Source: Volutella citrinella (taxonomy: Eukaryota; Ascomycota; Sordariomycetes; Hypocreales; Nectriaceae). Taken from it: a stretch of DNA of 64,000 bases. A program made the translations under genes and the position numbers. Position 1 is the stretch's first letter; the number at the start of each line of letters is the position of its first letter. The notes under the pieces are model-generated. The model was not told the origin of the DNA. It saw nothing but the letters and a program-made list of their open reading frames with translations, and did no database searches. Shown piece after piece: positions 22,750 to 56,560 of the stretch. The stretch covers positions 5,456,001 to 5,520,000 of the forward strand of contig JAWZSP010000002.1 in the NCBI GenBank assembly GCA_034401135.1, written 5' to 3'.

Positions 22750-23598
22750 ATGGTCAAAACCTACGTCCTCGCCCCGAATTGGACGACGGCGCCGCCGCCA
22801 GACGGGCGGATCAAGCTCGGCCATGTCCTCGACGACCTCACTGAGTTCGTTCCTCTCAACCGCGAGCAAACCATCAAGATAGATGACAAGTGTCTAAACA
22901 AGGTTGACACGAAAGATGGCTTCACCACGTCGCGCAGCAAGCTCGTATCAGGCGAGCTCGGCATCTTTGCCCGTGTCTTGGGGCTCGCGGGCATCGGAGC
23001 CGGCGCCGATCTGTACTACCGCAAGGATGTGAATGACGTATTGACTTGCAAGACGCTGGACACTACGACTTTCGATCCGACGGACAAGTACATCGCAGAC
23101 ACCATGGCGCTGGACGAAATCAAGACCTTCATGGAAGGCTGCAAGTATAAGGCGCCCGTTTACATGATCACTGGATTCAAGATAGGTCGTGGAGCATCCT
23201 TGCAGAGCAGCAGCAGTATCGGTCGTGGCCTGAAGCTGGATGGCGGCCTTCAACCCCCCGGGGCTCCGGCACAGATCGGGGTTCAGGCTGGGCTAGCTGT
23301 CAACAGGGGCGAAAGTGAGAGCTGGACAGGCTCGACGGATTTCATTGTTGCTTTCCGGGCGCGAAAGATATGGTATCATCATGATGACCTCAAGCATATG
23401 ACCAATATGGACAAGGTCGTCATGCAGGACGGAGCACCAGTTCAGAAGGGGCTGAATATGACACTGAAGGAAGACGATGAGATCTCTCTTTCAGACCTCT
23501 TCGTGGATGTGCCCCTGAAGATGGAGAAGGATGTTGAGGATGGAGAGGAGGTGGCGTGGATTATTCCCGCTGACCGAGATTTGGCAAGTCAATGTTGA
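22750..23598 (+). CDS. Gasdermin-like pore-forming cell-death protein (fungal RCD-1/HET-Q1-like)
   Basis: Uninterrupted 282-residue frame, close to the length of fungal gasdermins. The fold signature I rely on is the amphipathic strand VYMITGFKIGRGASLQSS (about 137-154), a glycine/proline loop, then a second strand ending STDFIVAFRARKIWY (195-209). This matches the order and spacing of the membrane-inserting hairpins of gasdermin N-terminal domains. A hydrophobic, glycine-rich segment (GIFARVLGLAGIGAGADLYY, 71-90) precedes it. A short acidic tail follows residue 251, the region that is proteolytically removed in HET-Q1. A subtilisin-like protease gene lies tail-to-tail about 100 bases away, the known fungal arrangement. 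In the family, cleavage frees the N-terminal part to oligomerise in the plasma membrane and kill the cell. Family assignment is by eye and context. Confidence 0.72.
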   Translation: MVKTYVLAPNWTTAPPPDGRIKLGHVLDDLTEFVPLNREQTIKIDDKCLNKVDTKDGFTTSRSKLVSGELGIFARVLGLAGIGAGADLYYRKDVNDVLTCKTLDTTTFDPTDKYIADTMALDEIKTFMEGCKYKAPVYMITGFKIGRGASLQSSSSIGRGLKLDGGLQPPGAPAQIGVQAGLAVNRGESESWTGSTDFIVAFRARKIWYHHDDLKHMTNMDKVVMQDGAPVQKGLNMTLKEDDEISLSDLFVDVPLKMEKDVEDGEEVAWIIPADRDLASQC

Positions 23599-23699
23599 GG
23601 GGGAGCATTTGGCACATGAAAGACGTTCGCGATTTGCAACAAAAGAATATTCAGGTAGGCTCGTTCACCGAGCTTTTTTCACTCCTTTGAATAGTAGTC

Positions 23700-26644
23700 T
23701 TACCTCATCGCCTCTATTATCTTTTTGGCCATGTCCTGTTGCGTAGACCTCTCATCCCACATGGTCCGCCAGGGCGTGACGTAGTCATAGCCATCTTTGG
23801 CCTCTGACATGGCCATGAAGATTTTCTTCATCCCCTTGACGCAGAAAGCCTTGTTCCGTTGCCTGTCTGTCAAAAGCCCCTCCGCTGACAAGTGCTGCAC
23901 GAACCAGAGCACGTTGGCCGCGAACCCGGCAGCCACTGGCGTCGAGTATGACGTGCCAAACAAGCAGACGTCTTTCTTATTTACCGACGGAATGGCCACC
24001 CCAAGAGTGCTGAAGTTTGCCTCCCTCTGCTCGGGCGACGGAGAGATGCCCGTGTCCTTTCCGTGCCCATCGGAGGCATGGATGCAGAGGACTGTGTCGA
24101 GGCTTGCTGGAAATGATCTTCCCTCGTTTCCTCCATAGTTGGAGGCTGCCGCAAACACGATCACCCCGTCATGTTCCGCCTTCGCGATGGCATCTTCAAT
24201 GGAATCGTGAGTTTTAGTTAGCCCAAACGACATGGTGATAATGTGGACATTGCATCGTTGAGCCCATTCGATTGCCTATGCAGATGTGACTGGTCAGTCT
24301 GGACCCCTCTTCTCAGGTGCGCAGTGGATTACCTCGACAACTTGACTCGCTTGATTTATCTCCTGAGCCTGACATATCTTTGCGATGTAGATATTCGCTT
24401 CGGGAGCTATTCTTAGAACCGAAGCAGCCACATTGGTGCCATGCCCAAAGGTATCGGACTTTGGTTCTCCAATAAAAGACCGTACGGCTTTAAAGGGACT
24501 ATCCCTCAATCTTCTCGATAGCTTGATCCCCCGAAAGAATGAATTGTTCTCATCAACGCCAGTGTCCAATATGGCGATGCGGACTTCTCCATTGCTTGAC
24601 AAATCTTTGATATGAGTAGCGAAGAACTTGTCCGCACGGCTGAAGAAACTCTCTGAGCGGGAAACTTTACTACATCAAAATTAGTCTTTCTTACGGCAAC
24701 TGGTCTGGACTATCTGAAAGCACTCACTCTGGATCTACCCTACTAGAAGGAACCTGTTCGTCATCAAATACTTGAAGCCGACCGTGTAAGCCAAACTTGG
24801 TGAACTCTTGGCTCGCTGCGCTAAGGGGGGCCGGAAGCTTGCAGCCAAGGGCTTTTGATGAAGTGCATGGGTTTTGTGACGGGTTATGACCCTGGATGAT
24901 ACTCGACACCGGCATCTCGAAGGGATAGTTGGGATCCCTCCTTGGGTCCCCTTCGGGTCTGCGGCGTGGGAAGCCTTCTGTCCGCGCATCTTCGAGGTGA
25001 CTGATGATTTTGAAGAGAACATCCCTGCACTGCTTCTCATGGTCACCCTTGGTCCGGCTTTGCATAATCTCGCCGTCATCTCCGTCATCATCGTCATCTC
25101 CGTCATCATCATCATCATCTACTAAATTTGCCTCAAGGCACATGCTCGCTGCGGTTACGTACCAATGGTTAACCATCCCGGGTAGCTCTAATTCATTCTC
25201 GTCCATAACTTCGATTAGGGCAATATCTGAGCGGCGGCTGAAAGGACCCAGCGGCTTCCCCAACGCAATCTCGAGGAGTACCTGGGCGAAAGAGATGAGG
25301 ATAGAGAACTTGATTGAGCCAGCCAGGTCATCGCTTTTATCGTCCTCCATCTCCATCAGGGAGTGTACGAGATACGGGTTGTAGGCTTCTTTCACCCTTT
25401 CCTTTTTTAGGTCGAGAGGGAAGAAAATATTTCTCGTCATCCACTGACTGCTCTGAGTTCCCGCGTGATACAGGTGGAGAAGGGCATGCGAGAGATTCAG
25501 TGCTAGCACAACTTTATGGTATGGGGCGAAACTCTGTCCGTTGGCCAGCATGTCTTCCAGCGACAGGTTTGGAGGATGCATTTCAATGATCTGAGGCGGC
25601 CCTGGTTGTCGCAAAATGCGAGATGCATATACCGAAATATCGAGAATTGTCTCATTTCTGAGATTTTTCTTGATCGTCTTGCAAACGTTCGGTATGTCTT
25701 TCAAATTGGGATGAGAAGATGGCCTAGCAATCAATCTTCTGTCAGGGGAAATTGGTTCTTGGTGTTTAGTTCAAGAGTGTTGTTACTTACAGCTGAGTGA
25801 CGACCCCGCAGATCGTCTCTTGCCACTTGTCATCACCGACGCAGTAAGATATAAAAAGCCTGTGCCGTACCTCGTTGGTGGACTCACTGCTGCTCTCGGG
25901 ATAGCGAACACGGATCTTGGCAGTATGCTTCGACCTGCACCCCGACGTGTGGATGTTTCCTTTCAAGGCGTTTAGTAATCCCGATAGACATTGCCGGGAC
26001 TTTTGGACATGTTCTTGTTGAGACTTCTTCTGCGTCGGCTTGCCTGATGCCCTGTGTTCGCCGCCGCCACCGATGCTTCCGTGCTCCTGGGACATGGCCT
26101 TGTCGGAACAACCGAGACTGCCATTGTTAAAGTCGGCTACAGTGTTCTCTACCTTCTTGAACTCCTCCGCCGTCTCTGGAAGACTTATGAATCTCGAAAA
26201 GTCCATTGATGTCGATTCATGCGAGGTTCGCTCTATTAGAGCTTGGAGCTTCGGATACTGAGCTAGCACTTTGGAAATCTTCTCGTCACCTCGTGCGCCT
26301 GCAGACGTGACAGTAGCGTCACCGGAGTGATCTGCTGTCTCCTCCATCCGTTCGGGAGACCTGACTGTCGCAACCAGGACACGTCCATCGATAAGGGTCT
26401 CGAGCAGCTGGAAAAATCGGCGCGAGACATTGCGGAAAGCTTCAAAGTCGTCCCGTGGCAGGTATTGTCCATATTTAACCCGGGAAGACATCTCATCAAT
26501 GTCGTATGAGAATAATCTCTTGGAGTTCGACACGGCCAGACTCGTTGTCCTCCTGGCGTCATCCGAAATCCGCTTTTTGATGAGCGGCGCCATCGTCTGC
26601 AGGGCTGCATCGAGAGCCTGGAGCTCAGGTTCCTCGCCACGCAT
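23700..26644 (-). CDS. DUF7580-like/subtilisin-like serine protease (HET-Q2-like gasdermin-activating protease)
   Basis: Four exons (25791-26644, 24728-25738, 24333-24669, 23700-24275) join in frame to about 925 residues. Residues 1 to about 250 are helical and low-complexity. Residues about 250-520 resemble DUF7580 (LSLEDMLANG, then LSHALLHLYH and RNIFFPLD), a kinase-like regulatory region of fungal self-recognition proteins. An acidic Asp/Gly tract follows, coded by GAT repeats near 25085-25125. The S8 domain has a full catalytic triad: Asp657 in ILDTG, His698 in GHGT and Ser843 in GTSYSTP, with Asn780 for the oxyanion hole. There is no signal peptide, so it is intracellular. In Podospora, HET-Q2 cleaves gasdermin HET-Q1; the tail-to-tail gasdermin gene here points to the same job. 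The final codon sits in a donor-like AGGTAAGA, so a further short exon cannot be excluded. Confidence 0.88.
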
Positions 26645-26992
26645 TGTGGTTCTGGGTGTAAGATGTGATCTTATCGAATGCCCAACGTCGATTCTAGCGG
26701 GGCAAGGGAAGGAAAAAGGTGCTCGTCTGGGATGCTCAGCCGAGTTCAGTGGCAGATGCCAATCCGTTTTTGTTCACTGGCATGACATCCAAGATCTTAT
26801 TGGTCAGTGGGCTTGCGGCGGAGGGAACAAATGTGACTTTCAAAGCCTGTCTCGGGACCAGCTTTCACACTGTGTGCAGATGAGGGGTTTTGAGCATCGC
26901 TTGCTGACACCACATGGCTGAGACAATCCGACTCTGCCTTACTGATCACGACCACAACAACTGTCGCCAGTTGAACCTGCCATTTTTCCAAG
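26645..26992. promoter_or_regulatory. Divergent promoter between the protease and the C2H2-pseudokinase genes
   Basis: A 348-base interval between two ATGs facing away from each other. No TATA box or known operator stands out. The close head-to-head layout suggests shared expression. Confidence 0.5.
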
Positions 26993-29900
26993 ATGGCGAC
27001 CAGTACTAGCCCCGGAAAGGCTGTAAAACGAGACATCTTTCAGCTGGCTCGCACCTGTGAGGGCTTGTTCTTGCAGTACACCGACCCGGAACTGGAGGAA
27101 ACCGAGAACCGTACCAGGGCCGATGTTCAGCTACAGCGCTTCTACATCTGGGCCTCTAATCTTGGGGTATTTGCCAAATATCCTGCCTCACTCGACAAGA
27201 GATTAGAATACAGTGACGAGATTCAGAAACTTGTACTGCAGTTGCTGTCGTTGATACAAACAAACCTTGTTTTTGGTGAGTTCCGGGAGCAGGCCAAGTA
27301 GCGATTCGGCATAGTATAGCTGATTGGTCTTTCCAGTAAACCCTGACGAGGCTGAAGAGGAGCCGGGAAGAAGTAAAGTACAAGCGAAGGGTCATGACCT
27401 GCCAACAGAAAACAAATCAACACTTCAGGGAACCCCCTCTGAGGCGTTGGACGCCGTGGAAGCCACAATCGATCGACTCAACAGGCTGGGCTCAACACTT
27501 CGGAGGCATTCGACGACTAGTCTTGATGCTAGGGTCAAAGCTTTTACAGAGAAATCTGGAGACAAAAATTACACACTATTAGCCGAAAGGATAGTCCATT
27601 TCAGATTCCGGATTGCAACCCCTTCCTTGAAGGAACAGCTTGCTCTATCGATGTCAGCACGGCGGGAGAGGCTGAGATACACTAGACGACATCAGGAAAA
27701 ATTGTCCTCTGGTGTGCCGCAGGCCAAGAAAGATGCGCCACGGGGTCAGCCGCATCCAAAGAACTACCACTCAGCTGCACTGGAGCGGATAGACGAAGCG
27801 GCGCCAGACAACACACCGAGAGGCGAATCTTCCGCAGACCATCGGGTGGTATTCCGCGTATCCAACAACAGCCCAGTTAGCAAGTCGCCTGCTCCGTATT
27901 CTGATCTGACAAAAGCCTCAACTTTCAGGCCAACACCATCGGTAGTGGCCAAGTTAAAAAGCGCCGGCGAAGGCTCCATTGTATCTTCACACCAGAGCAA
28001 AACCCTCATGGCTGAGGATCTGGATGGCTATCCCGAGCCACCCAAAATTGAGCCCAGAAAGCCGGCGCCACCGTGTCCCTATTGTTGTCAACCACTCCAA
28101 ACGTCTGATATGAAGATTCGCAACTGGCGGTTGGTCAGTCCATGTGGAGAAATGCGCCAAGGCTAATGGAATATTAGGAAGCATGTCGACCAGGATCTGC
28201 TGCCATTTGTGTGCATTTCTGAGAAATGCAATCAGCAACCGCCCCCAGTCTTTCAAGATCTGGAGGTCTGGGCCAACCACATGAGAGAGCATCATTCGAC
28301 AAGGTGGCCACGGCTAGTCCATAAGCCCTTTGTCTGGCGCTGTGATGTTGACCACTCAGCTAAGGAGTTCAATTATACAGACGAAGACAGGTTCGAGGAA
28401 CATCTCGATAGGACACACAGCGATTACAGTCCAGGAGCAAGAAACGCCATCTCTAAAACTTGCAAAGTTTTCCGCAGAAGGGACCCAAACATCTGTCCTC
28501 TATGTGGCTACGACGTATCAGCGCTCAATGCCGAGCAAGGCAGCCCGCTAGTGAAGGAATCGGACTCGGCCAAGATTGATCAGGCTACAGAGCTCAGCAG
28601 GCTAGCCAGGCACATAGCAAGGCATCTCCGACAGCTAGCATTCGACAGCTCCAACGACCTGGATCGCGGTTTTGACGACGATGATGCGCCCCAGGAGAGG
28701 AGTCAGGTTTCCGACCAATTCAAGCGAGATGAGTCGTGGACTCACCCACCGAGTGGCTTGGAAAATCTGTCACAAGGGTCTCTGAACTTTGGCAATGATA
28801 TTGCCATTCGGGAGAATGACACAGCGGTCACAGACTCCCAAACTAGGTATGACATCGAGTACGCAAATTACACCCCCGCAGCTCCTCCGCCAGAGCCGGA
28901 AAATGATTATGGTTTCCAACAATCTTGGGATTTCTGGAGCGAATACAATCGCGAGCAACGCAAAGGTTTAGATGGTGTAGATCATATCATTCAACACCTG
29001 GAGACCAAGTCCGTCCAACAAGCACACGCGGACTTGGATGCTCTGGCTGACCTATGCCATATCATCCTACTCCGAATCTCTCACTACCCTACCATGGTCC
29101 CCAATACAGAGAAAGTGACACCCCTGCGATACGCAATCGAAATGCTGAAGTGGACTCTTCAAGATGGATTTGAGAGCGGAGATGATTTGGGGCTTGAGAC
29201 TCGGCCGGACTTGCCTGGTCAGCTACGTAACTGCTCCTCACAGCTCAAAGAGCTAGAAATGATGCTGGAAAATAATCTCAACCAGAGAGCCGAGAAGCAA
29301 ATGGAGCGGCTATTTGAGACAAAGGATATCGAAAACCTCACCACCACGCTCCGCGAATATCGAAAAATCCAGTCTGAAAATTCCGACATGGACTTGGGGT
29401 ATGTCACAGCTTCATCACTGGGCTCATTCACATTAAGCGTGGCTGACAACCAAAGCAGAAAAACTATTATTCTCGCCGACTCCCACTATGGTGCACACGT
29501 TCTTCAAGAGCAGATCCAAGCCACACTTGTCCCGGGTGTTTTCAGCAAAAGGGAGACTTATTTTTGTCCAAATGGCAGTGTTGACGTGTTCATCACAAAA
29601 GTCTCAGTTGCTGCAGCGTTACGCCCAGAATCTGCATCCCATTCGTTGAATGATTTCATCTTAACCAAAGCAAAGACGTTGTTTGCCATTGCCGTATGGA
29701 ACGGCTTCCATAGCCAGCATCTGCATCGGGTAATGTCAGGATTCTTTGAAAGCTCAACTACTGACAATAACTTGCCCATGAATAAGTCTAAGTGGGAGGA
29801 GATCAAGGACAAAGTTGCTTCAGGCAATCTGCCGCGTGATAGTATCAACAACCACCTTGATGGAGGCACCAACCTAGACGACCTACAGCAGGTCGAAATA

Positions 29901-31280
29901 ACCCGCCGTTTTTATCGAAGCCAGTACATTTTTATGGCTCCTGTCTTCTCGGTCAGCCAACTACAAGCACTCCGCTACGATTTCGCTCCGAACATTATTT
30001 TTCCATTCATGAAGAAAACACGAATCATCGATGATGTTTTTGACGATATTTACAAGGTCAGCATCCATGAAATGCACATTGAGTGGTTGAATCAGGTACG
30101 CTTTGGAACCCTGAGCCCAAGAACCGACTAATACATGAGCTGACTCTTTCTTTCATCAAAGCCTTCCCCGAAGAATAAGCAATACCGCACCGATATTGCC
30201 TTGAAGATGATCCGCACTTCAAATTTGGGACCAGCAGCAAGGCGAATCTGGGAGAAGGAAGTCGAGATACTCACCCACACAAACTCGCTAAGGAATAAGC
30301 ATATCGGCCGCTTTCTTGCTAGCTTTCAACGCGATGGTGACATGGGGCCGGTTTATTACTTGATGTTTGAGTGGGCCAGCGACGGAACTCTCAAAGATCT
30401 GTGGCAGGACTTGCGGCGGCCAAAGCTGACGGCGGATATTGTTGCGAACACGTTTCGCCAATTCGTCGGACTTGCCAGCGCCATTCATCAAGTCCATGAC
30501 AACGCCCCATCCAACTACCATGGTGCTTTGAGGCCCGCGAATATACTTTGGCTCAAAAACGCTTATGGTGCTGGGCTTGGAACGCTAAAAATTGGTGTTT
30601 GGGCATTTGGAAGCACAGCCCATGGTGGGCCCCACGACGCACCAGAAATTGATGGATACGAGACTGGCCTTTTTCACGTCGACCCCGACAAGCCTGTCGA
30701 TAACCGATCATGTGACATTTGGTCAATTGGCTGCGTTATGCTTGAGACTTTGGTATGGCTTATGTATGGTGCGGACGAGTTGAAATGGTTTCGTGAATGT
30801 TTGGGCTCCGAGGGGTCCTTCTACGAGCTGCAAAAGGACCATGACGGCAAGTCGACCGCCACAGTCGACCGCCATGTGAGGCTGTGGATGGACTACATGG
30901 CCAAGGATCCGCCATGCGCCGTCGGAACGACTGCCGTTGGCAATCTTCTGGAGCTCATCAAAACCCGTCTGTTGGTAGTCGAGCTAGCCACACCCTCATC
31001 GGTGTCTAGCGAGTCTGCTACCCTCACTGGGCCTCCAACAGCCCAGGCTTCGGGACGCTGTGATTCCGCGGAGCTGGAGAAGCGAATGATGGATATTGTC
31101 GCTAAAGCCGAGAGTGAGAGCTACTGGCTAGCAGCCGAGCCCAATCCTCGAGGTCCGATGCCTGTGCGGGGGACGGACATAGTTGTTACTTCCGTGTCTG
31201 ACGAAGCTGAAGCCTCCCCTAAGGACACAGTGCTATTGGATGGTTTACTTCAACCGCCGCCTGGCCCCAAACGAGCATAA
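26993..31280 (+). CDS. Large protein with N-terminal helical region, C2H2-type zinc fingers and C-terminal pseudokinase
   Basis: Four exons (26993-27275, 27337-28129, 28178-30095, 30162-31280) join in frame to about 1370 residues. The first ~95 residues form a helical region of the type found at the start of fungal C2H2/NLR-like proteins (RFYIWASNLGVF). Residues about 340-560 contain Cys/His pairs (CPYC...HVDQDLLPFVC...HMREHH; CPLCGYD...HIARH). The C-terminus is kinase-like: lysine at 1013 (IALKMI), APEI and CDIWSIGC are kept, but the catalytic HRD is HGA (1118-1120) and DFG is AFG (1146-1148), so phosphotransfer is unlikely. It is divergent from the gasdermin-protease gene and may act as its sensor or regulator; this is inference. 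Confidence 0.75.
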
Positions 31281-52848: not shown

Positions 52849-55800
52849 TTAAACTAGAGTAACTATATTCTCAAACTTGTCTTCATCCTCGATCCACAGC
52901 GGTGGAACCTTGTTTCCATATACCCCACCGTTGGGCATTCCGACTTCCCCAAGCCCTACCCTCCGGAACCGACCAGGAGCATCCTCAACAGGCGTCAACA
53001 AGAGAAACACTTTTGAAGGAGGCTCCCCACTTGGATACATCGGGTACCCATATCCCTGAGGCAGCGGCCCGCGGCCAAAGCCAACAAGGTCGAAAGCGTA
53101 GCAGTCTGACTCTCCTAGACTCAACGCCGCGTCTGCCGAGTCCTCCGAAGAGTCCCAGGCATGCCTCACTCTGAAGTTGTCGAGGTGCGTTTCTAGGAGC
53201 TTGGCCGGGTACAACGAGCCCTTTAGCGTGATGAAGCCAGATACTCTGTACGTCGCTGTATCAACCTGGGCATCGAACGAGACTAAGGCCGTCAGAGGAA
53301 CGACTCGCCCGCCTCTGTCCAGGTATTCAAAGGATATTTTGCCACAGTCCTGCGCAGTCATCCATGTCCACGAGGGAGCTCTGACTATTCCCCCTGCGCT
53401 CTGCTCGGGTTTCCAGCAAAGACTGGCCGCGAGATGCTCCCCCAGGAAGATTCCACCGACGGAATCGCTTCCAACCTGGTGCTCCATGAACTTGGAGAAT
53501 CCCCAGAACGCGGCGAGGCGCTCGGATGGCTTGGCAATCTCCCGCTCCGTGAACAATTTGACCTGACTCCGCCATACGTCAAAGGGTTTTGGCGAGGCTT
53601 CCATCAGCTTCGTCTTTGCATCACGACGCTTGTCCACGGCGCGGTCGCCGTCTATCCGAACAGTCCAGGCTCGGCCTGGATCCGCCTCGAGAGCGTAATG
53701 GTGCAAGCACTCCCAATGCAACACCCTCTGCCCGAAATACAGGGTCCTGGGACTGAGGAAGTGCTCCTGCTGCGCCCAGGCGCGAGAATGAACCGGGGCG
53801 TCCAATTTGACTTGCTCTTCCTTCAACAACCACTGCCGAAGCAGGACCCTCGTGCAGACGATGCCTTCCTTTCCGTATGCACGCCGTGACTTCTTCTCCC
53901 AGAGCTTGATGGGCAACGGACACGATGTGCGGTCGGCCCGGGGCTTAGCTAGCCCGTCCGCAGTGCTCTTTGCGAGCAAGCCCGAGATAGTCAGCTCGGC
54001 GCTGCCGTATATGGCATGCATCTTGGACACCTCTCGTGCCCAGTCTTGGCTATCATCCTGGACAATACACAGTGCGTCGATCCAGATGTACTTGAAGCCC
54101 AAGTTTCTCGTCGCCAGGATGGCATCTCGAAATAGCGCTGGGAACACGTCAATGGGAATCCCTGTCAGATGCTGCTCGAGGTTGGCCCGAGTGGTCTCAA
54201 TCGCATTCTGCGACTGCCCTCTGGCATAGGATACAGCCACGTACGGCATGGAGTCGCCCACTTGTTCACAGAGAACAGGGTGGTTTGCATCGTCTCCAAC
54301 ATACATCAGTCTTGCAGGCCGCTCTCCCTTGGCAGCATCTCGCGCTGCCTGTAAAAACTTGCGACATTGCGCGTGCTGCGGGGAAGACTTGCAATTGTCG
54401 AGCCACATCTTGGCCACGGAGAGAGCCTGCACGGAACCCGTTCCGAGATGGCCGTCCTCTGGCGCACAGGGATCTGCGATGAGGTTCTCGTTGGTTGCTA
54501 CATCAAACAGCCTCGCCCATTTGCCTCCGTAATGAATTTCTGGGCCATAGCCCACACACATGTGAACACGGAGAGCTGTCTCTTCTGGGGTCTCGCCGTC
54601 TGGCGGAGGAGGCTTAGGCTTGCCGTCTTTGTAGTCGTACATCTCGCCGTTGTCTATTTGATCGGCCAGGAAGCCGCAAAACGGGCAGCCTCTCGCGGCC
54701 GACGCATACAGCTGTTGTTTGTTCTCATGTAGCTGATACCAGTGTCTGCTTTCGTGTCCCTCATCCTCGGAGGAATATCGTATCTGGGCCTGGAATTCCC
54801 TGCAGCCGCCACATAGCGCCTTCTCAGGCACCTTTGACTTCATCCCCGCCATGTCACGAAGCTTCTGGAAGAAGTCGTCGATGAGCCTCTCAGCCCCTGA
54901 TAAATCGGATTCCAGGTCCTGTTGGGAAGAATACTCAACTCGAGACAGGGCATGGCAGTATACATAGAAGAGTTCTGCCTGTAGTATCAGCTTTCTGCCC
55001 GTCGTAGCTGCCAACAGCTCCCTCGCAGCACTCCTCTCATCAGGCAGTGGCAACGGCTTTACCAACAGCTGTGCCGAGAAGTTGGCGCCTCGAGACATGA
55101 ACAGTGACACTGCTCTCCGGTCCTCGGCAACTAGAGCCAAGTCCAAAGGGCGCCATCCACCTGGCGAGGTCGCATTGGGACTTGCTCCACCGTCCACGAG
55201 TTGCCGCATCAGAGAAATACTTCCTTCTTCAAGGGCGAGGTGCAGGGGCAACCAGCCCGCGACGCCTTCAAATTTGCTCCTCGCATGATACGAGCCGTTG
55301 CTCTCAACAGTCATGGCGTTCATGTCAGCGCCATGTTGGATCAGAAAGGCAACCGTGTCCGGGTCCTCAGAGGCGACTGCTTCGTGGAGGGGTGTTCGGC
55401 CGTAGGCGTTGCGCATGTTCACGTCTGCTCCAGCGTCTAGGAGGAACTTGGCCGCATCATGATGCTTGAGCCAGAGGGCTTGGTGAAAGGGCGTATTACG
55501 CCGGAACCATACATTGCTCCATCGCGCCGGTCTGGGAATACAGCATCCACCCGTTGGCACTGGACGCTCCAACTGGTCTCTTGGCCACGACTCGTTTGGA
55601 TCCATCCCTTCCATCACTGCATCCACAATGTGGACTCCAAAGGCTTCCGAGTTTGATGATGATCGCCAAAACTCGGTTTTGTCACCCCTCCATTTCTCGA
55701 CGTCTGCCAACTCCAACCAGGTGGGTAGGGTGTGCTGGGCTATTGTGTCGGATGAACTCGACTTGGGCGATGCCACTAGTTGTGCAGATTCGGGCGGAAG

Positions 55801-55974
55801 TGCCATCTCTGTGTCCGACGGAGAAGAAGGAGAATCTGGTGAAGGGGGTGAGAAAGTCGATGCCCTGGAGCCAAAAGCCCCATAGTGCCCCGCAAGGCGA
55901 GCTACAATTTTGTCATGAAATGCCTTTTGCTCGGCTTCGATGGCGTCGACTAGCGATGTAAAGACGCCCTCCAT
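52849..55974 (-). CDS. Ankyrin-repeat plus HET-domain protein (heterokaryon incompatibility type)
   Basis: Uninterrupted frame of 1041 residues from the ATG at 55974. Residues about 165-310 contain ankyrin repeats (TPFHQALWLKHHDAAKFLL, then GRTPLHEAV and WLPLHLALEEG). A Cys-rich stretch follows (CGGCREF...CPFCGFL, about 390-440). The HET domain lies at about 580-730 with its core motifs MPYVAVSYARG and FKYIWIDALCIVQDD. The C-terminal part carries the usual SRAWAQQEHFLSPRTLYFG continuation. HET proteins trigger cell death after fusion of unlike hyphae. Ankyrin repeats before rather than after the HET domain is the less common order. Confidence 0.9.
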   Translation of the reverse strand: MEGVFTSLVDAIEAEQKAFHDKIVARLAGHYGAFGSRASTFSPPSPDSPSSPSDTEMALPPESAQLVASPKSSSSDTIAQHTLPTWLELADVEKWRGDKTEFWRSSSNSEAFGVHIVDAVMEGMDPNESWPRDQLERPVPTGGCCIPRPARWSNVWFRRNTPFHQALWLKHHDAAKFLLDAGADVNMRNAYGRTPLHEAVASEDPDTVAFLIQHGADMNAMTVESNGSYHARSKFEGVAGWLPLHLALEEGSISLMRQLVDGGASPNATSPGGWRPLDLALVAEDRRAVSLFMSRGANFSAQLLVKPLPLPDERSAARELLAATTGRKLILQAELFYVYCHALSRVEYSSQQDLESDLSGAERLIDDFFQKLRDMAGMKSKVPEKALCGGCREFQAQIRYSSEDEGHESRHWYQLHENKQQLYASAARGCPFCGFLADQIDNGEMYDYKDGKPKPPPPDGETPEETALRVHMCVGYGPEIHYGGKWARLFDVATNENLIADPCAPEDGHLGTGSVQALSVAKMWLDNCKSSPQHAQCRKFLQAARDAAKGERPARLMYVGDDANHPVLCEQVGDSMPYVAVSYARGQSQNAIETTRANLEQHLTGIPIDVFPALFRDAILATRNLGFKYIWIDALCIVQDDSQDWAREVSKMHAIYGSAELTISGLLAKSTADGLAKPRADRTSCPLPIKLWEKKSRRAYGKEGIVCTRVLLRQWLLKEEQVKLDAPVHSRAWAQQEHFLSPRTLYFGQRVLHWECLHHYALEADPGRAWTVRIDGDRAVDKRRDAKTKLMEASPKPFDVWRSQVKLFTEREIAKPSERLAAFWGFSKFMEHQVGSDSVGGIFLGEHLAASLCWKPEQSAGGIVRAPSWTWMTAQDCGKISFEYLDRGGRVVPLTALVSFDAQVDTATYRVSGFITLKGSLYPAKLLETHLDNFRVRHAWDSSEDSADAALSLGESDCYAFDLVGFGRGPLPQGYGYPMYPSGEPPSKVFLLLTPVEDAPGRFRRVGLGEVGMPNGGVYGNKVPPLWIEDEDKFENIVTLV

Positions 55975-56560
55975 TGTGAGCAAAGTGAAGAGGTACGATT
56001 AGGATGGTAAGACGAACACGTTACAACCAAGGGTGGCCCGGAGAGATAAATAAGTATGAAGGAGTCATGAAGGAGTGTTGCTGCCTGGGCGTGTAACGTG
56101 TTGTTGGCTGTGCGCCCCGCCATTGGCTGTGTCCACTCCACTGCTGGCTGCGCCTGATGGCTGTGCCCTGGTGGGTTCGATATGACGTATGATGCTGTGT
56201 TTACAGCGCTGAAACGGCCACTGCCTCGTTTCACCCTAATTAGCAGGTTCGGAGTTTCGGACGAATATCTCTTTGTATCAAACATTCTCTTCCTGACTGA
56301 GGCTCATCCTCATCAGTAGCACTGGGTGGGTCATGCATCATTACACCCCTGGCAGTCCATACCGGATAGCTATAGCGCCGAAGCATTGAGGACTCCCGTT
56401 GTCTATCTCTTGTCTCTGTTGTCTCATGCCAGCGCGACCGCCAAGGAGGGGCTCCCACATACCCCAAAGAGCATTCTATCGTTGTAAGATCATTAGGTTG
56501 GCTATGCCTCTAGTTAGTAGATGAGAATCATTCAAGTCTCCCAAGTCTCCTGCCATATCA
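55975..56560. other. Intergenic region with one copy of a dispersed repeat
   Basis: Promoter side of the HET gene and 3' side of the membrane-protein gene. 56243-56282 matches 59101-59139. The DNA repeats short phrases such as GGCTGTG near 56108-56165. No gene is supported. Confidence 0.4.
56243..56282 (+). repeat. Dispersed repeat, copy 1
   Basis: About 40 bases nearly identical to 59101-59139 (shared core GAGTTTCGGAC, then TCTCTTTGTAT). Probably the remnant of a transposon end or MITE; the boundaries cannot be fixed from two copies. Confidence 0.5.

Follow-up and report, generated by a model that had tools for sequence, protein, structure and literature searches.

A gasdermin gene, a DUF7580-subtilase gene and a divergent third gene: a probable three-gene cell-death module in the fungus Volutella citrinella

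Background

This report concerns a locus in a stretch of 64,000 nucleotides from Volutella citrinella (contig JAWZSP010000002.1, positions 5,456,001 to 5,520,000), hereafter the window. A gasdermin-like gene lies there beside a gene for a subtilisin-like (S8) protease with the domain DUF7580, and a third gene adjoins the protease gene. The closest described systems are fungal gasdermins under proteolytic control by clustered proteases, as reported in three reviews (PMC12881547, PMC10197012, PMC10989679). One of these puts the fungal gasdermins at about 1,900 across 400 genomes; about 80% of the gasdermin genes are clustered with protease genes and about 63% with S8 genes. It adds that 18 architectures leave about two-thirds of the proteases uncovered, and that receptor and protease are fused in “contracted” pathways (PMC10197012). 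The control of the gasdermin-activating proteases and the signals answered by the sensors are listed as open questions in a 2025 review (PMC12881547).

A sequence-only reading of the window took HET-Q1/HET-Q2 of Podospora anserina as the model of adjacent gasdermin and protease genes. The reviews present het-Q1 and het-Q2 as idiomorphs, i.e., different genes at the same locus (PMC12881547), and HET-Q2 as an S8 protease of 388 amino acids (aa) (PMC10989679). The right comparison is therefore with two-gene clusters of a gasdermin and a Q2L protease, a known fungal arrangement. The window gasdermin resembles HET-Q1 in length (282 aa versus 278 aa), and both systems have an S8 protease; however, the window genes stand side by side in one genome and the protease has 925 aa. 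RCD-1 of Neurospora crassa provides the closest solved fold, although it is shorter (244-257 aa), whereas the window protein has an acidic tail and a protease neighbour; the same 2025 review describes RCD-1 as activated on meeting an allelic partner, not by cleavage (PMC12881547).

The Q2L clusters share with the window an S8 gene adjoining the gasdermin gene, a multidomain protease and a short C-terminal region after the pore domain. In contrast to them, the window protease carries the pseudokinase-like DUF7580, and a third, divergent gene with a C2H2 region is attached. The parts also come in the order of the mammalian inflammasome (a receptor-like protein, a separate protease, a gasdermin), and the receptor-like gene is of the NLR type at two other loci of this genome; here, however, a subtilase takes the place of the caspase, and the third gene of the window ends in a pseudokinase rather than a NACHT-type domain. 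The mammalian inflammasome uses CARD/PYD adaptors, where the window has pseudokinase and C2H2 regions instead. The literature searched, which excluded the 2022 paper of Clave et al. (said to be the primary one on protease-clustered gasdermins), yielded no mention of the third gene, of DUF7580 or of this locus. The locus had been offered as a further, possibly undescribed member of its class; the class itself is already described. The gasdermin/protease pair alone is another case of that class, and it is the third gene and DUF7580 that set the locus apart.

Results

We believe that the locus is quite probably a three-gene fungal gasdermin cell-death module, composed of the gasdermin, a DUF7580-S8 activator and a divergent upstream regulator. 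The genome searches below cover the V. citrinella assembly (45.1 Mb, 26 contigs).

The gasdermin and its protease

A gasdermin N-terminal fold had been claimed for the 282-residue product from its strand order. The structure prediction bears this out: the fold is gasdermin-like and not of another kind, with RCD-1 closest among solved structures. By sequence alone the match is marginal (RCD-1-2, E 0.0021, residues 88-208). A protein of Neocosmospora mangrovei is 80% identical across 97% of the length. The acidic C-terminal tail is present as described (71 residues, net charge -11), and all 31 of the 31 aligned gasdermin-family proteins have a negatively charged tail of 46-92 residues. We presume, by analogy, that the tail is autoinhibitory and is cut off by the protease. 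F251, considered as the cleavage site by analogy with F238 of HET-Q1, is a phenylalanine in only 11 of the 31 sequences; therefore, no cleavage site is claimed. A match of residues 3-37 to the WW domain of SETD2 (E 0.003) was rejected: the stretch aligns throughout the gasdermin homologues and lacks the second tryptophan of the WW motif. A search of a viral contig collection turned up 8 pattern matches, none of them a relative of the gasdermin.

The neighbouring gene (26644 to 23700, minus strand) yields a 925-aa protease after the splicing of three small introns (52, 58 and 57 bp). The Asp-His-Ser triad is intact, as had been read: D657 (in DTG), H698 (in GHGT) and S843 (in GTSYSTP). With residues 640-925 as the query, 67 database proteins match the S8 domain (E <= 0.001), and 55 of them combine DUF7580 with S8; in 34 relatives picked from the 67 and aligned, the three catalytic residues are invariant. 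The protein start has no obvious signal peptide by eye, in agreement with the proposed intracellular location, and the DUF7580-like region ahead of the S8 domain is matched by Pfam DUF7580 (PF24476). With the full-length protease as the query, none of the 7,991 candidates that were scored reached E <= 0.001; we guess at low-complexity words as the cause. In Foldseek and VIA-align searches with the protease model, the 50 rows listed are all subtilases, as the subtilase domain fills the list. No common stretch was found by blastp between the protease and the third gene (best E 4.0) or the gasdermin (best E 2.2). Another S8-domain match, P0102, has NPHP3_N/NACHT and S8 in one protein, i.e., a receptor fused to a protease.

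The two genes form the tail-to-tail pair that had been reported, with stop codons 101 bp apart and both in one genome. The pairing recurs: an S8 gene lies within 5 kb of each of the six gasdermin loci of the genome (four tail-to-tail, two divergent), and genome searches with two divergent gasdermin paralogues added no further locus at E <= 0.01. When 42 S8 matches were merged by hand into 32 loci, six random positions produced 0.04 pairings on average and at most 3 in 100,000 trials. In other species the arrangement could be read for five cases, the remaining homologues not being pairable from the tables. In three of them the locus tags of the two genes are consecutive (QQS21_002507/002506 and QQS21_009903/009904 in Conoideocrella, HIM_09770/09769 in Hirsutella), and in Fusarium falciforme and Colletotrichum destructivum the two entries give an identical longest-contig figure. 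Homologues that are never next to proteases, which the sequence-only reading would have counted against itself, are thus not what was found, either in this genome or in other species.

The paralogous loci vary in their details. The sister gasdermin at C9:0.83 Mb (L008:4954-5837) has an intron-sized interruption at residue 138/139 that the window gene is without, which is an intron gain or loss between close paralogues. The gasdermin at C2:1.05 Mb (L010:4501-5439) consists of two open stretches with a stop between them, i.e., a small intron or a broken gene. The sixth locus (L011, C9:0.256 Mb) combines a very acidic gasdermin tail with a divergent ankyrin-S8 protease. At C1:5.82 Mb a DUF7580-S8 gene is immediately followed by a gasdermin-like fragment with a weak profile match (L044:7935-8201, best domain E 0.022), apparently the remains of a decayed partner gene. 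Such remnants raise the question of whether the window locus is itself decayed and non-functional; we regard this as very improbable, considering that its three genes read through, the protease triad is intact and the gasdermin is 80% identical to the N. mangrovei protein.

DUF7580 as a probable pseudokinase

Two DUF7580 profiles were compared with all PDB sequences. The first, built from 9 copies of this genome, has 62 matches at E <= 10 (best E 0.0071); the second, from 17 copies including 8 database proteins, has 73 (best E 0.0029). In either case the 60 matches listed are all kinases or pseudokinases, among them IRAK4, Nod-factor receptor 5, MLKL, B-raf, Tribbles 2 and LRRK2; these are related sequences, and their count is not a number of independent matches. 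In the predicted model of a relative (P0046, pLDDT 79.5) the DUF7580 region appears by eye two-lobe-like in strand and helix order. Among 50 rows from a viral structure library, named kinases occur weakly (E 0.03 and 0.67), ranked under subtilases. The catalytic HRD and DFG motifs were not seen by eye in the window DUF7580. Because of the profile matches, the weak structure-library matches and the missing motifs, we consider DUF7580 a probable pseudokinase. The 2025 review speaks of fusions between protease domains and “other predicted kinase-like domains” (PMC12881547), and the DUF7580-protease fusion may be a named version of what was glimpsed there.

The third gene

The earlier description as a gene pair stands as far as the pair goes but is one gene short, since 26993-31280 looks like part of the system. 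This gene starts 348 bp from the protease start, in the divergent direction, and gives 1370 aa when three introns are spliced. Both it and the protease gene have GT-AG introns and an unbroken reading; the gasdermin gene is intronless. At the C-terminus Pfam recognises a kinase-like domain (32.9 bits against a cut-off of 31.7), by its motifs a putative pseudokinase with HGA for HRD and AFG for DFG. It is the only domain that Pfam gives for this copy: NACHT and NPHP3_N are absent (the relatives L048 and L049 have NPHP3_N), and no Pfam zinc finger matches at E <= 0.1. The C2H2 reading is adopted because of the C/H pattern and a zinc-finger match over the cut-off in the relative L047. The N-terminus approaches Pfam HeLo below the threshold (16.7 bits against 23.2), and 2 of 9 family members match HeLo at E <= 1. 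No HeLo protein is among the 3 PDB matches of this domain at E <= 10, and its profile was negative against the protease N-terminus, DUF7580 and the gasdermin.

In this genome 13 DUF7580 loci pass the Pfam cut-off, and another 2 fall short of it. At 11 of the 13 a C2H2 gene lies within 5 kb, divergently in 10 cases and convergently in one; at one of the divergent loci (C8:0.53 Mb) a gasdermin gene stands in between. By these genome searches the other 2 and the 2 below the cut-off have no C2H2 gene. The linkage also appears from the side of the third gene: each of the 6 places found with the C2H2-containing exon of the window (E <= 0.001) is at a DUF7580 gene, and each of the 7 found with the first exon (E <= 1) is at a DUF7580 locus. 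A relative as the query finds 10 places, 8 of which match its C2H2 half and lie at DUF7580 loci, while 2 match only its C-terminus and lie elsewhere. With the C2H2 part of L051 as the query, all 11 matches at E <= 0.01 (itself included) are within 5 kb of DUF7580 loci; of a further 4 at E > 0.6, 3 are elsewhere. The N-terminal domain of L051 finds 6 places (E <= 1); DUF7580 loci account for 4 of them, and the other 2, both weak (E 0.15 and 0.63), are elsewhere. In the random control for the C2H2 linkage, 20,000 trials with 10 positions averaged 0.03 and never exceeded 2. L051 itself (C6:2.45 Mb) is a minimal version, in which a DUF7580 gene and a C2H2 gene diverge; there is no S8 match nearby, and no further domain was recognised by eye.

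These data bear on a simpler proposal, in which the gasdermin and protease form a two-gene cluster, DUF7580-S8 is both sensor and activator, and the third gene, though associated with DUF7580, is separate and present by chance. Clustered proteases are indeed presented as multidomain sensors in the reviews (PMC12881547, PMC10197012), and one gasdermin locus (C2:1.05 Mb) has DUF7580-S8 and no third gene in the stretch read. However, the occurrence of the third gene at 11 of the 13 loci, in 10 of them divergently, and the closest relatives of all three window genes at one locus make this proposal unlikely, and we rank it below the three-gene module.

That one locus is C9:0.83 Mb. The nearest genome-wide relatives of the window gasdermin and of the C2H2 exon are both there, as is the nearest protease relative among the 11 loci compared, and gene order and orientation are those of the window. 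Of the 1370 residues of the window copy, 8-563 have a counterpart in the third gene of this locus (40-51% identity in three blocks), and the match goes no further; the C9 gene continues with Goodbye and NPHP3_N, as in an NLR-type receptor (the sequence read ends inside the gene), while the kinase-like exon of the window has no match on C9 in the whole-genome search. Elsewhere the C-terminal part is different again: NPHP3_N with ankyrin repeats in one open reading frame (ORF) with the C2H2 block (C8:3.21 Mb), a RhoGEF part (C1:5.82 Mb), or a kinase domain with HGN and GFG at the key motifs (C8:3.33 Mb).

The last comparison is relevant to the view that the third gene encodes a zinc-finger transcription factor whose only role is to control expression of the divergent protease gene. 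The C2H2-like block and the 348-bp intergenic region common to both genes agree with it; but the C-termini of the family are signalling domains (pseudokinase, NPHP3_N with ankyrin repeats, Goodbye with NPHP3_N, RhoGEF), and we consider it still less likely than the two-gene cluster. Both this view and that of a decayed locus are ranked under the three-gene module.

The partner of DUF7580 also varies. At seven loci DUF7580 is followed by S8 on the same strand; a gasdermin accompanies five of them, another has the weak fragment (C1:5.82 Mb), and at the last (C1:0.30 Mb) the profile found none within the stretch read. At two further loci, L045 (C3:0.45 Mb) and L046 (C1:0.57 Mb), PNP_UDP_1 shares an ORF with DUF7580; each adjoins a C2H2 gene, and no gasdermin was found there by profile. 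Possibly these are the same DUF7580/C2H2 chassis with another effector enzyme; a review lists PNP_UDP_1 among fungal NLR effectors and relates it to bacterial immune ATP nucleosidases (PMC10197012).

Discussion

The three-gene module could work as follows. The gasdermin would be an inactive pore-former restrained by its acidic tail, and the third gene would encode a receptor-like upstream regulator of the DUF7580-S8 protein; its N-terminal and C2H2 half would be the constant part working with that protein, and the variable C-terminal part the sensor. Once switched on, the DUF7580 pseudokinase would release or align the S8 domain, a dedicated gasdermin activator, and the subtilase would remove the acidic tail. 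The freed N-terminal domain would then insert in the plasma membrane, and the resulting pore would kill the cell, which probably halts the spread of non-self or parasites. In this scheme we infer that the tail is cleaved and a pore formed, which way the signal runs, and what sets it off (non-self recognition or the sensing of parasites); the cleavage step is suggested by analogy with HET-Q1/HET-Q2 and the CHAT pair of P. anserina as told in the reviews.

Several points weigh against this reading. It is built on sequence, predicted structure and gene position, and cleavage, pore and cell death enter it by inference. The gasdermin model has middling confidence and modest TM-scores to RCD-1, with residues 156-190 unresolved; hhalign found no match between DUF7580 and either of two single kinase-like sequences. 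The DUF7580/C2H2 and gasdermin loci are paralogous and may go back to duplications of entire clusters, so that they do not count as independent events; moreover, the evidence for linkage of the third gene comes from a single genome. DUF7580 genes occur also without S8 or gasdermin. Finally, no third gene is found in the 5.4 kb read beyond the protease at C2:1.05 Mb, nor by the genome searches at the DUF7580 locus C1:3.49 Mb, and DUF7580 was not seen in the ORFs scanned at L011; therefore, the third gene is not obligatory.

It is tempting to go further and propose an inflammasome-like fungal cascade in separate genes. An exchangeable C2H2 receptor, ended by an NLR, pseudokinase or RhoGEF part, would switch on a pseudokinase-tethered effector, i.e., a gasdermin-freeing subtilase or, at other loci, a PNP_UDP_1 enzyme; the divergent DUF7580/C2H2 pairs would be a general, previously unnamed immune chassis with gasdermin killing as one output. 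We put this forward tentatively, as somewhat less than an even chance. Separate genes for receptor and protease would be the uncontracted form of the fused-receptor pathway, and the locus a possible fungal counterpart to receptor-protease-gasdermin signalling with separately encoded parts. The third gene, linked to the protease gene and made up of a constant half plus an end that can be exchanged, is a concrete candidate for the control of the protease, and a role is offered for the unstudied domain DUF7580. The three-gene locus may show how fungi trigger gasdermin cell suicide: the protease probably unleashes the pore-former, and the third gene looks like the controller of the protease.

Coordinates and neighbouring genes

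Table 1. Features of the gasdermin locus, in window positions
Feature	Position	Strand	Details and basis
Gasdermin-like gene	22750..23598	+	Single exon, 282 aa; fold and homologues
Gasdermin pore-forming domain, residues 1-211	22750..23382	+	Boundary set by us from the alignment
Acidic C-terminal tail, residues 212-282, net charge -11	23383..23595	+	Presumed autoinhibitory and protease-removed, by analogy with HET-Q1
101-bp gap, convergent stop codons on both sides	23599..23699	.	Gene models
DUF7580-subtilase gene, 925 aa	23700..26644	-	Exons 26644-25791, 25738-24728, 24669-24333, 24275-23700; spliced model and homologues of the same architecture
DUF7580 (PF24476), taken as a pseudokinase	25099..26011	-	Intron 1 inside; kinase-like by profile
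Peptidase S8 domain, catalytic D657, H698, S843	23886..24587	-	Introns inside; triad positions invariant in 34 aligned homologues
Divergent intergenic region, 348 bp, protease gene / third gene	26645..26992	.	Gene models
Third gene, 1370 aa	26993..31280	+	Exons 26993-27275, 27337-28129, 28178-30095, 30162-31280
Third gene, conserved N-terminal domain	26993..27275	+	HeLo similarity weak, under the Pfam cut-off
Third gene, C2H2-like zinc-finger block	28069..28706	+	Ends approximate; C/H pattern and zinc-finger match in the relative L047
Third gene, C-terminal exon with most of the kinase-like domain	30162..31280	+	HGA for HRD, AFG for DFG, by eye

The window contains another allorecognition-type gene, about 21 kb away from the third gene: an ORF of 1049 codons (52852-55998, minus strand) in which ankyrin repeats are combined with a HET (heterokaryon incompatibility) domain.

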